Source: Leucobacter komagatae
GTDB lineage: Bacteria; Actinomycetota; Actinomycetes; Actinomycetales; Microbacteriaceae
Direction: 5' to 3'
Assembly (NCBI RefSeq): GCF_000834055.1
Contig: NZ_JXSQ01000003.1
Span: 62,001 to 126,000 of the forward strand
DNA: 64,000 bases
Position 1 is the first letter of the stretch; each line of letters begins with the position of its first letter. The position numbers and the translations under genes were made by a program. Shown one piece after another: positions 37,318 through 40,864 of the stretch. The notes beneath the pieces are model-generated. The model saw nothing but the letters and a program-made list of their open reading frames with translations, was not told where the DNA came from and searched no databases.

Positions 37318-38136
37318 TTAGGCGCTGTGCTCGTGCGAGTGCACGCGCGCCCGTGGGGTTCTCGCGAGCCAGCGTCCCGCCGTGCGCTCGATGGCGATCG
37401 GGTAGTCGAAGCTCTGCGACACGAGTTCGGTGGTGAGCGTCTCAGCGACATCCCCGGCCGCGAGAACCGCGCCATCGCGCAGCAGCATCGCGTGCGTTGT
37501 CGTCTCGGGGAGTTCCTCGAAGTGGTGGGTGACGAGCACCGTGGCGAGCTCGGGGTGGGAATCGTGGAGGTCGTCGAGCGTGGCGAGGAGCTGCTCGCGG
37601 GCGGCAACGTCGAGGCCTGTTGACGGCTCGTCGAGCAGCAGCAAGGGAGGGTCGGGCAGCAGCGCCCTTGCGATGAGCGCGCGACCGCGTTCGCCCTGCG
37701 ACATGGTCGGCCAGCGTGCCTCGCTGCGGTCGCCGAGCCCGAGGGTGTGGATCAGGGCGTCTGCCCGCGCGACGAGCGCTGAGTCTGCCTGCCAGCCCAT
37801 CATGAGTTCCGTTGTGCCGGTCGCGCCAGTGAGCACGACCTCACGCACCGTGAGTGGCGAACGCAGCGGGTGTCTCGGGTTGACGTGGCCGATCTGTTCG
37901 CGGAGCTTGCGGATCTCGACTCGGCCGAGCTGCTGACCGAGCACGTATACGGCACCGCGGGTCGGGTGCCGTTCGGCGCCGCAGAAACTCAGAATCGTGC
38001 TCTTGCCAGCGCCGTTTGGCCCGATGAGTGCCCAGTGCTCGCCCGCGCCGATGGTGAATGACACGTCGCTGAGGATCGCGCGACCCTCGCGCACGAAGTT
38101 CACCTGCTCGAGCCGCAGCACCTCGCGCGCGGTCAC
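37318..38136 (-). CDS. ABC transporter ATP-binding protein (stand-alone)
   Basis: 272 residues. Walker A GPNGAGKS (39-46), Q-loop near 85, signature MSQGE, Walker B LLLLDEPSTG and the switch histidine in LVTHHFEE. The C-terminal HSHEHSA is histidine-rich. No permease is next to it. The GTG start overlaps the stop of the broken GntR gene by 4 bases, so regulator and ATPase were coupled. ModF-like relatives act alone in gene control or transport; the role here is open. Confidence 0.87.
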   Translation of the reverse strand: MTAREVLRLEQVNFVREGRAILSDVSFTIGAGEHWALIGPNGAGKSTILSFCGAERHPTRGAVYVLGQQLGRVEIRKLREQIGHVNPRHPLRSPLTVREVVLTGATGTTELMMGWQADSALVARADALIHTLGLGDRSEARWPTMSQGERGRALIARALLPDPPLLLLDEPSTGLDVAAREQLLATLDDLHDSHPELATVLVTHHFEELPETTTHAMLLRDGAVLAAGDVAETLTTELVSQSFDYPIAIERTAGRWLARTPRARVHSHEHSA

Positions 38137-38853
38137 GCTTTCGCCTCGGCGCCGTGTGCGGTGTGCGGGGCTGCGATCGCCTCGCCGAGGGATCTGAGGT
38201 GAGCGCGGCTGAGCGCCGCGGCGCCGGACGCATCGCGGTCCGCGATTGCCTGCGCGAGCTCAACGTGGTGGCCGTGATCGCGCGAGCCACTGAAGTCGTT
38301 GCTGCCGAACGTGCCGCGGAGCCTGAGCATCTCGATCATCGCGGGGCGGATGCGCGGGGTGAAACCGTCGAACAGTTCGAGCAGAATTGGATTGCCAGCG
38401 GCCTGAACGACCGCGCGGTGGAACGCGGTGTCTGCGTCGACGTGGGCTGCGATATCGTCGCGGTGGACGCCGCGGCCCTCGAGCGCGCGGCGGATCGCGC
38501 GGAGGTCTGCCGGGGTGCGCCTCGACGCCGCGAGCTCGGCGCTCTCCGCCTCGATCGCGGTGCGCGCCTCGATCACCGCGAGAATGTCTGAGCGGCGCAG
38601 CACGAGATCCCAGTCGTCGCGGGCGTCGAGGGCGGTCACGAAGACGCCCGATCCCTGGCGAGAGCTGAGCACGCCGAGACCGGCGAGCTGTCGTATTGCT
38701 TCGCGAGCGGTCGATCGGCCGACGCCGAGCTGTGCGCGCGAGCGTCGTCTCGCCCGGCAGTTTTGCGCCGAGTACCCACTCGCCCGCACGGATGCGGTCG
38801 AGCAGCACGTCGGCTGCCTGGTCGGCGAGCGAGGAGCGTTGCACCTGGGCCAT
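38133..38853 (-). pseudogene. GntR/FadR-family regulator, frameshifted
   Basis: The N-terminal frame from the ATG at 38853 reads QVQRSSLADQAADVLLDRIRAGEWVLGAKLPGETTLAR, then loses frame. From about 38735 down, another frame continues LGVGRSTAREAIRQLAGLGVLSSRQGSGVFVTAL and a complete FadR-type helical domain (FCD) to 38133. Removing one base near 38733 (CGCACAG to CGCCAG) restores the usual LARQLGVGRST of the recognition helix. The lesion lies in the DNA-binding domain. It may have controlled itself and the ATPase downstream, or leuA upstream. Real decay or sequence error. Confidence 0.8.
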
Positions 38854-38938
38854 GAGCGTCTCGTTTCGGTCTGGTCGTTGCGCGCATCTCGGTGGCAGAG
38901 TGCCGACCGAAGTGCGCTACTTGTCTGAGGAGTTGTGT

Positions 38939-38944
38939 TACAGT
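38939..38944 (+). promoter_or_regulatory. -10 box TACAGT before the leuA leader
   Basis: TACAGT ends exactly 6 bases before the ATG of the leader peptide at 38951, so the leader mRNA should begin at its start codon. A TTGTCT at 38921 is too close for a normal -35. Confidence 0.6.
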
Positions 38945-38950
38945 CTACGC

Positions 38951-38995
38951 ATGTTCTTCCACGGACTCCTTCTTCGCCGCCACGGCGGGGCGTAG
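38951..38995 (+). CDS. leuA leader peptide (leucine-rich, 14 residues)
   Basis: Reads MFFHGLLLRRHGGA, with three leucine codons in a row (CTC CTT CTT) and then TAG at 38993. Two of the three use CTT, a codon uncommon at this GC content. It lies 72 bases before leuA, behind a leaderless promoter and before a stem-loop. Stalling at these codons when charged leucyl-tRNA is low would change RNA folding downstream. Such leaders control leucine genes in Actinobacteria and other bacteria (family knowledge). Confidence 0.75.
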   Translation: MFFHGLLLRRHGGA

Positions 38996-38998
38996 CCA

Positions 38999-39035
38999 GA
39001 CCGGCTCCCCGGCGTGGGGAGCTGTCGTGCCGGTC
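38999..39035 (+). promoter_or_regulatory. Attenuator-like stem-loop before leuA
   Basis: Inner stem GCTCCCC at 39004-39010 with GGGGAGC at 39016-39022, loop GGCGT. Alternative outer arms GACCGGC at 38999-39005 and GCCGGTC at 39029-39035 compete for the same bases. No T-tract follows closely, so control could act on termination or on access to the leuA ribosome site. Confidence 0.6.
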
Positions 39036-39067
39036 ACCGTTTGCTTCGCAGAACAGGAACCGACCTC

Positions 39068-40864
39068 ATGACCACGCCCACCGCCCCAGCAGCAGCCCCA
39101 TTCTGGAACCGGCAGCGCCCCTCCGGCATGCCCTCGAATCGCTACCGCGACGCCCACGCCCGCGTCGACCTGCCGCTCACCGAGCGCGAGTGGCCCACCA
39201 AGCGGCTCACCCAGGCGCCGCTCTGGGTGCCCGTCGACCTCCGCGACGGCAACCAGGCGCTCGCCGAGCCCATGGACCCCGAACGCAAGCGCCGCTTCTT
39301 CGAGCGCATGGTCGCGATGGGCTACACAGAGATCGAGGTCGGCTACCCGTCGGCATCGCAGACCGACTTCGACTTCGTGCGGCTCATCGCAGAAACCGAC
39401 ATCGCGCCAGACGACGTCACAATCGTCGTGTTCACGGCCGCAAGGCGCGACCTCATCGAGCGCACGGTCGCCTCGATCGCTGGGATCTCGAACCCGGTCG
39501 TGATCCACATGTACACCGCGACCGCCCCCATGTGGCGCGACGCCGTCCTCGGGCACAGCCGCGAGTCGCTCAAGGAGCTCATCCTCGCAGGCGGCCGCGA
39601 CATGCTCGAGCTCGCCGGGCACCTGCCGAACGTGCGCTTCCAGTTCAGCCCGGAGGTCTTCAACCTCACCGAACCCGACTACGTGCTCGACGTGTGCGAC
39701 GCGATGACCGAGCTGTGGGATGCGCGGCCAGAGCGCCCCGTGATCCTCAACCTGCCGGCGACCGTCGAGATCGCCACCCCGAACATCTACGCCGACCAGA
39801 TCGAGTACATGCACAAACGGCTTGCGCGCCGCGACGGCGTGATCCTCTCGGTGCACCCGCACAACGACCGCGGCACCGGAATCGCGTGCGCGGAGCTCGC
39901 CGTGCTCGCCGGAGCGCAGCGCGTCGAGGGCTGCATCTTCGGCAACGGCGAGCGCACGGGCAACGTCGACATCGCAACCCTCGCCCTCAACCTCCACGCG
40001 CAGGGCATCGATCCACAGATCGACTTCTCCGACATCGACGAGATCCGCCGAACCGTCGAGTACTGCAACCGCATCGAGGTGCACCCGCGGCACCCCTACG
40101 TCGGCGACCTCGTGCACACCGCGTTTAGCGGCACGCATCAGGACGCGATCAAGAAGGGCTTCGCCGAGCACCGCTCGCGCGCTGCTGCAGCGGGGCTTCC
40201 CGAGAGCGACATCGAGTGGCGGGTGCCGTACCTGCCGATCGACCCGGCAGACATCGGGCGCAGCTACGACGCTGTCATCCGCGTGAACTCGCAGTCGGGC
40301 AAGGGCGGCATCGCCTACCTGCTCGAAAGCGAGTACGGGATCGAGCTGCCACGCAGGCTGCAGATCGACCTTGCGCGTCGCGTCCAGCAGCACACCGACG
40401 CGAGCGGCGAGGAGGTGACCGCGGCAGCGATCTGGGAGATCTTCACCGAGGCCTACCTTGGCCGCGCCGCCGGTGCTCGCCCGAGCGGAAGCGCGGAACC
40501 TGCCCCGATCGCGCTTGCCGCGTTCGCGAGCTCAGAGGCCGGCGGAAAGCCCAGCACATCCCTCACGCTGAGCGTCTCTGGCGAAGCGGTCTCGAGCGAA
40601 CACGAGGGCGTCGGCCCCGTCGAGGCCCTCACAGCGGCCCTCACGGCCTGCGGCGTCGCGATCGAAGTGCTCGAGCTCCATCAGAGCAGCGTCGGCGCGG
40701 GCAACGCGAGCGAGGCGATCACGCTCATCGAATACCGCACCCAGCGCGGGGACGCTTGGGCGGCCGGGCGCGACCGGTCAACGCTCGCGGCGACGCTTGC
40801 AGCGGTCGTTGCGGCCGCGAACCGCGCGAGCGCGAACCGCGGGAGCGCGGGCACCGTCTCCTAG
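39068..40864 (+). CDS. leuA: 2-isopropylmalate synthase
   Basis: 598 residues, the long actinobacterial type. It joins acetyl-CoA to 2-oxoisovalerate in the first step of leucine synthesis. The N-terminal extension SNRYRDAHARVDLPLTEREWP is followed by the TIM barrel with WVPVDLRDGNQALAEPM, the metal ligands in VHPHNDRGTG and GNGERTGNVD, and a C-terminal regulatory domain (about 480-590) that binds leucine in this family. The ATG at 39068 is preceded by a weak AGGA. A leader peptide rich in leucine and a stem-loop lie upstream, so both attenuation and feedback inhibition are likely. Confidence 0.95.
   Translation: MTTPTAPAAAPFWNRQRPSGMPSNRYRDAHARVDLPLTEREWPTKRLTQAPLWVPVDLRDGNQALAEPMDPERKRRFFERMVAMGYTEIEVGYPSASQTDFDFVRLIAETDIAPDDVTIVVFTAARRDLIERTVASIAGISNPVVIHMYTATAPMWRDAVLGHSRESLKELILAGGRDMLELAGHLPNVRFQFSPEVFNLTEPDYVLDVCDAMTELWDARPERPVILNLPATVEIATPNIYADQIEYMHKRLARRDGVILSVHPHNDRGTGIACAELAVLAGAQRVEGCIFGNGERTGNVDIATLALNLHAQGIDPQIDFSDIDEIRRTVEYCNRIEVHPRHPYVGDLVHTAFSGTHQDAIKKGFAEHRSRAAAAGLPESDIEWRVPYLPIDPADIGRSYDAVIRVNSQSGKGGIAYLLESEYGIELPRRLQIDLARRVQQHTDASGEEVTAAAIWEIFTEAYLGRAAGARPSGSAEPAPIALAAFASSEAGGKPSTSLTLSVSGEAVSSEHEGVGPVEALTAALTACGVAIEVLELHQSSVGAGNASEAITLIEYRTQRGDAWAAGRDRSTLAATLAAVVAAANRASANRGSAGTVS

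Follow-up and report, generated by a model that had tools for sequence, protein, structure and literature searches.

A LEU element with a predicted leaderless leucine leader before leuA of Leucobacter komagatae

How does a short reading frame with three successive leucine codons, placed before leuA, take part in the control of leucine biosynthesis? The locus considered here lies in a window of 64,000 nucleotides from Leucobacter komagatae (contig NZ_JXSQ01000003.1, positions 62,001 to 126,000). Elements of this kind were described by Seliverstov et al. in 2005 as LEU elements, before leuA in most of the Actinobacteria then studied, and they combine a leader peptide carrying a leucine run with a pseudoknot and with a base stem in which the leucine codons pair with the Shine-Dalgarno (SD) sequence of leuA (PMC1262725). 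The positions given in the available text of that paper are before leuA and in one transposase (PMC1262725). Because leader mutations in Streptomyces coelicolor, as cited there, did not fit classical attenuation, the authors set this mechanism aside and, in the same available text, proposed a protein-binding site and a helicase (PMC1262725). The mechanism of the LEU element was left open at that time, and the comparative data presented here point back to ribosome sensing.

The leader reading frame and its start

The leuA gene of the window encodes 2-isopropylmalate synthase ("leuA1"; NF002991, 765 bits) and occupies 39068-40864 of the plus strand, with its ATG at 39068. Its SD sequence, AGGA at 39055-39058, is the proposed partner of the leucine run. 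On the same strand, a leader ORF of 14 codons (38951-38995 in the ORF listing, ATG at 38951) encodes MFFHGLLLRRHGGA up to its stop codon, and the leucine run CTC CTT CTT within it (38966-38974) is the proposed sensor and anti-SD sequence. This confirms the ORF with three consecutive leucine codons that an earlier note on this DNA had picked out. A -10-like box, TACAGT, at 38939-38944 of the plus strand ends six bases before the leader ATG, so that, by the spacing between a -10 box and the start of its transcript, transcription is predicted to begin at the leader ATG itself and the leader to be leaderless. A consensus scan called no sigma-70 promoter at 38850-39120.

Loci of leuA were taken from named genomes (the best 80 of 334) together with 29 further loci of the same genus, in which a search gave a DNA match in 36 of 54 genomes. 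The nearest named locus among the best 80 of 334 belongs to Leucobacter sp. G161 (87% identity). The window and loci L002-L110, after removal of L005 (contig end) and 11 duplicates, make up 98 distinct regions. A leader ORF with leucine codons is present in 89 of them; 87, the window included, were aligned, and L098 and L107 stayed unaligned. By this rule, nine regions are without a leader: L012, L037, L042, L044, L067, L077-L079 and L090, which is incomplete. L042 keeps the leucine codons and helix A of the structure described below, and its frame runs on. In L037, L067 and L077-L079, the element is absent and leuA starts just 3' of the conserved promoter, which, as far as the sequences can tell, is a natural deletion of the switch. 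The typical leader peptide of the relatives ends in LLLRRHGGA. Because a stop codon directly follows LLL in L003 and L006 while the structure is kept, the RRHGGA tail is not needed as a peptide.

The 87 aligned sequences had been selected because they possess a leader ORF containing leucine codons. In 86 of them the leader start is preceded by a TANNNT box that ends 5-9 nt upstream, as a single box at 6 nt in 55, and this bears out the start at the predicted +1 that had been read from the window. The same box test gave 0/87 before the leuA start and 45/8588 before the remaining positions of these elements. SD-like 4-mers precede the leuA start in 72/87 and the leader start in 1/87. By the same box test, leaders found before leuC (29/29) and before a gene for an MFS transporter (13/14) also appear to be leaderless.

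A published counterpart is LeuL1 of the Streptomyces lividans leuA leader, MRFGLLLLSCRGEGL, which is read from a leaderless transcript and, in the available text, is without a typical terminator (PMC8079986). Two matches of the covariance models introduced below, L302 and L305, encode exactly this peptide and serve as a positive control. The comparison with relatives and LeuL1 together support the earlier suggestion of a leaderless leucine leader before leuA. Short leucine-rich ORFs before leuA, called leuL, have been described in S. lividans and Corynebacterium (PMC8079986, PMC4046766, PMC5784534, PMC3890552, PMC6892785), and the S. lividans leuL shares with the window both the leaderless start and the terminator-free leader (PMC8079986). 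As far as their available text goes, however, these papers class leuL as transcriptional attenuation, and a pseudoknot and an anti-SD role are absent from their discussion. In Mycobacterium abscessus, a uORF before leuA is listed by ribosome profiling (PMC4974804, available text). Leaderless polycysteine ORFs of mycobacteria attenuate the downstream operon (Canestrari 2020, as cited in PMC9031893 and also named among the references of PMC13236596, each available in part). These ORFs resemble the present leader in being leaderless and in carrying a codon run for the regulated amino acid, but the amino acid is cysteine and the available text of PMC9031893 describes no pseudoknot or codon-SD pairing.

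The pseudoknot and the LEU family

The earlier note had described competing stem-loops after the leader ORF. These are better described as a pseudoknot of two interleaved helices between the leader ORF and leuA. Helix A pairs 38980-38990 with 39007-39017 and helix B pairs 38999-39005 with 39029-39035, all on the plus strand. In the window, helix A forms 10 of 11 pairs, with one G-G mismatch, and helix B forms 7 of 7. The covariation search in relatives that had been suggested gave compensatory changes in both helices: over the 87 sequences, 96.9% of 1563 cells are paired with 28 two-sided changes, a number equalled in 0/500 shuffles, and slid versions are 39-58% paired. A wider set comprised 59 model matches (56 distinct), the weak antisense match L129 (27.8 bits) being counted among them, and its alignment was fitted to helix A. 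Here 97.7% of 616 helix A cells are paired, with 62 two-sided changes.

Helix B was also examined by swapping linkers. In the leuA1 set, linkers pair with their own partner at -17.04 versus -16.12 when swapped, and 0/1000 swaps were as good; the leuC set (n=9) gave 7/1000. The swaps did not reach significance with the second leuA (n=8, 365/1000) or the MFS gene (n=4, 660/1000), nor in the larger sets of leuC (n=29, 282/1000) and MFS leaders (n=13, 318/1000). When 38951-39080 is folded without a pseudoknot, the result does not stand out from shuffled sequences (z -0.93, 34/200 shuffles as good), so that folding of the single sequence tells nothing about the element.

The leader peptide with its leucine run, the pseudoknot and the position before an actinobacterial leuA are all found in the window. 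The fourth feature, a base stem between the leucine run and the SD sequence, is supported by the pooled family, but the window shows it weakly, and neither the leuC nor the MFS sets reach significance for it. The window feature is almost certainly a LEU element whose leader ORF is leaderless; it is a real, further member of a family that was itself published in 2005. As in the available description of the LEU element (PMC1262725), a leucine-run leader and a pseudoknot, with a putative leucine-SD base stem, stand before leuA and no terminator was found. Whereas that description favours a protein-binding role and reports the element before leuA and in one transposase, here leuC, leuB and an MFS gene are preceded by it as well, the start is predicted to be leaderless throughout, and at the window leuA the element is additionally accompanied by a GntR-linked motif. 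The published LEU element with its pseudoknot, a divergent GntR-type gene and a conserved upstream motif go beyond what the earlier note had recognised.

The strong conservation of helix A would suit the proposal of 2005 (PMC1262725, available text) that a regulatory protein, or some other factor acting in trans, binds the element, translation of the ORF being incidental. Two covariance models, R1 and R2, bear on this proposal. They were built from the elements, begin at the leucine run and require no start codon. Among 100 distinct R2 matches, from which L129 was excluded and of which some loci were hand-picked (mostly second matches in multi-match genomes) and some also trained R2, an ATG or GTG lies 5-9 nt after a TANNNT box and in frame with the run in 94, and such a start is out of frame in 2. 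Such maintenance of start and frame, together with the changed residue set of the leuB elements, L-I-L or V-I-L, argues against incidental translation, and we regard a protein-binding site as improbable.

At gathering score, Rfam gave no family match in the window and five secondary loci. On the minus strand of 38961-39037, two subthreshold HDV-ribozyme matches (26 bits versus 50 gathering, E 0.042; and RF02682, 22.5 bits versus 44, E 0.022) were observed. The HDV-ribozyme reading was rejected. Seven other LEU loci gave no such match, in a search that was less sensitive because more bases were searched at once; the matches are taken as the complement of a GC-rich pseudoknot.

Leucine codons as a proposed sensor and lock

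On balance, and with moderate confidence in the mechanism as a whole, we favour a leucine-responsive translational attenuator in which the leucine codons act both as the sensor and as an anti-SD lock. When charged tRNA-Leu is sufficient, ribosomes would complete the 14-codon ORF and then leave. In the leader free of ribosomes, the pseudoknot would form and the leucine run would pair with the leuA SD, a pairing that is proposed to result in poor translation of leuA. When leucine is short, a ribosome would stall on the CTC/CTT codons and cover the run, and the SD would be freed. The same codons would thereby be sensor and lock simultaneously. The two roles are separable by codons that keep leucine and break the SD pairing, and the reverse, which makes the mechanism testable.

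Pairing of the run with its own SD region amounts to -6.49 versus -5.86 when swapped (sd 0.13), with 0/200 swaps as good. Among 31 representatives of less than 70% identity, the values are -6.11 and -5.46 (10/1000), and over 108 elements 0/1000 swaps were as good. With the second leuA (n=8) the swap test gave a borderline 55/1000, and it was not significant for leuC (n=9, 729/1000; n=29, 314/1000) or the MFS gene (n=4, 486/1000; n=13, 62/1000). The best run-SD duplex of the window is weak, at -5.0 kcal/mol with an interior loop. In L160, an element before leuB, the changed run CTCATC faces a GATGAG that adjoins the following start (-8.4 kcal/mol).

The third codon of the run is CTT in 106 of the 108 elements, and CTG stands 7 times at codon 1, 7 times at codon 2 and never at codon 3; among the 4161 leucine codons of the downstream genes, CTT is found 100 times (2.4%) and CTG 1919 times. 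CTCCTT, which we take to match the 3' end of 16S rRNA, is present in 66/108 runs versus 2.3 expected from gene codon usage. Against synonymous draws, the pairing of the run is better than the mean of its own controls in only 71/108 elements; against mixes of CTC and CTT, it is better than the mean of the mixes in 63/108. The CTY codons may instead, or also, serve one tRNA-Leu isoacceptor. The strict CTT at codon 3 is not fully explained. A description of this anti-SD codon bias was not found in the literature searched, most subscription papers being outside that search.

Accessibility of the SD was computed in a pseudoknot-free model, in which masking of -14 to +20 around the run raised it from 0.238 to 0.455 (of 108 elements, 76 went up and 11 down). 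With a control mask it was 0.249, with 28 up and 31 down. In the window, masking the run left the SD accessibility unchanged (0.405 to 0.397).

Classical leu, trp and ilv attenuators sense the amino acid by ribosomes stalled on regulatory codons and end in a terminator hairpin with a U-tract. The window likewise has a leader peptide with regulatory codons, and sensing would again be by stalled ribosomes, but a terminator hairpin with a U-tract was not found: a scan of 38850-39120 gave 0 terminator-like sites, so that the missing T-tract pointed out in the earlier note is correct. A T-rich stretch precedes the downstream gene in 15/108 elements. Translation control, which the same note had raised as possible, is the better supported option in view of the missing terminator and the masking model, although it is not proven. 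The leaders of trp, leuS and ilvB are covered in PMC1262725, which is available in part.

The main rival is a transcriptional attenuation via Rho or another factor, in which translation of the leader would decide the passage of RNA polymerase into leuA and the SD pairing would be secondary. Leader-peptide attenuators are common in this group; in the available texts, Rho has been raised for the cys leaders (PMC1262725), and the leuA and leuL transcripts of C. glutamicum rise together early in starvation (PMC6892785). However, no terminator was found at 38850-39120, a typical one is also missing, according to the available text, from the published S. lividans leuA leader (PMC8079986), and in the pooled data leucine run and SD covary. 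A Rho-type effect is judged unlikely, and translational attenuation, which rests on comparison and inference, appears to be the most likely mechanism.

The GntR-type regulator and the wider set of LEU elements

A gene for a GntR/FCD-type regulator (Pfam FCD and GntR) is located at 38133-38853 on the minus strand, divergent from leuA. The assembly breaks it into two frames, with ORFs at 38260-38853 and at 38133-38789 (minus strand), owing to either a sequencing error or a pseudogene. Of the 79 named leuA loci (among the best 80 of 334), 71 have a homologue in the same divergent position upstream. A conserved, putative operator-like motif, CTTGTCTGAGGAGTTGTG, at 38920-38937 of the plus strand overlaps the promoter region. 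TTGTCTGA is found just upstream of the -10 box in 84/87 regions and is absent from 21/21 leuC, second-leuA and MFS loci checked. L078 carries the palindrome CTTGTCTGACAAG, presumably the kind of site expected for a GntR-class regulator. To judge by these conserved sequences, the GntR-type regulator, perhaps acting at the motif, is probably a second control layer on this leuA, and transcription from the same promoter would probably be controlled by it as well.

An extension of this idea is that the window leuA is mainly under the GntR-type regulator and that its LEU element is decaying. The GntR gene and the motif are conserved with this leuA, also in the element-less L037, L067 and L077-L079, and the leucine-SD pairing of the window is weak. 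However, the start, the frame, the leucine run, helix B and 10/11 pairs of helix A are intact in the window, and the broken-looking part in the assembly is the GntR gene. This reading is very improbable, and translational attenuation remains the preferred one.

LEU elements are widespread in the class. R1 matches were found in 54/54 genomes of the same genus, one to four in each, and in 240/249 genomes of the family, and R2 matches in 262/296 genomes of the class; in a phylum sample of 197 genomes, matches were found in 15, of which only two lie outside the class. The window genome has three LEU matches, namely the window leuA, leuC (G000:C9; leader MRQRHLLLRGRDGI) and a second leuA (G000:C16; leader MLFGSLLLSCRDESSTSN). 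In G000:C16:1859-1947 (L136) and in L143, the element before the second leuA is longer by 16-17 bases in the helix A loop. The second leuA product scores 824 bits with TIGR00970, above the cut-off of 697, and the window leuA scores 664 bits, below it; regulation or feedback may differ between the two copies.

The element is present at leuC in 26/30 of the closest family loci and in 3/29 further class loci, all three of the same family, and in 0/26 outside the family. The MFS transporter gene is situated between murG and murC (L111-L115, L138, L150, L204-L233). A homologue exists in 31/54 genomes of the genus, and the element was found at 14/30 fetched loci; the homologue of the window genome itself (L225) is without a LEU element. 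The substrate of this transporter is perhaps leucine or a keto acid. A second set of 58 elements, from which L129 was left out, comprises 52 before two leuA types, 2 before leuC, 1 before leuB and 1 before a bacterial-type leuA (L159), and L170 and L189 (1061-1132) are without an assigned downstream gene.

These elements tentatively suggest, at somewhat less than an even chance, a class-wide leucine regulon in Actinobacteria, which would join leuA of several types, leuB, leuC and the MFS transporter under one translational switch. Codons imitating the 16S anti-SD (CUCCUU) would both sense and lock, and leaderless initiation would bring the sensing ribosome. If this is true, the non-classical behaviour of the Streptomyces leader mutants would be explained, as the mutations would damage the sensor and the lock together. 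Leucine control of leuC, leuB and the MFS transporter is predicted, which is relevant to amino-acid producing actinobacteria. The literature search, again with most subscription papers outside it, did not turn up any description of such elements ahead of leuC (one family), leuB or an MFS transporter gene.

Elements before leuB were found in three genomes (L160, L299 and L307), with the runs L-I-L, L-I-L and V-I-L, respectively, and two of the three loci were confirmed to encode 3-isopropylmalate dehydrogenase. Between the LEU element and leuB, all three carry a small ORF with a similar end, R-Q-A-(I/L)-Q-E-S-M-D, which is possibly a conserved small protein.
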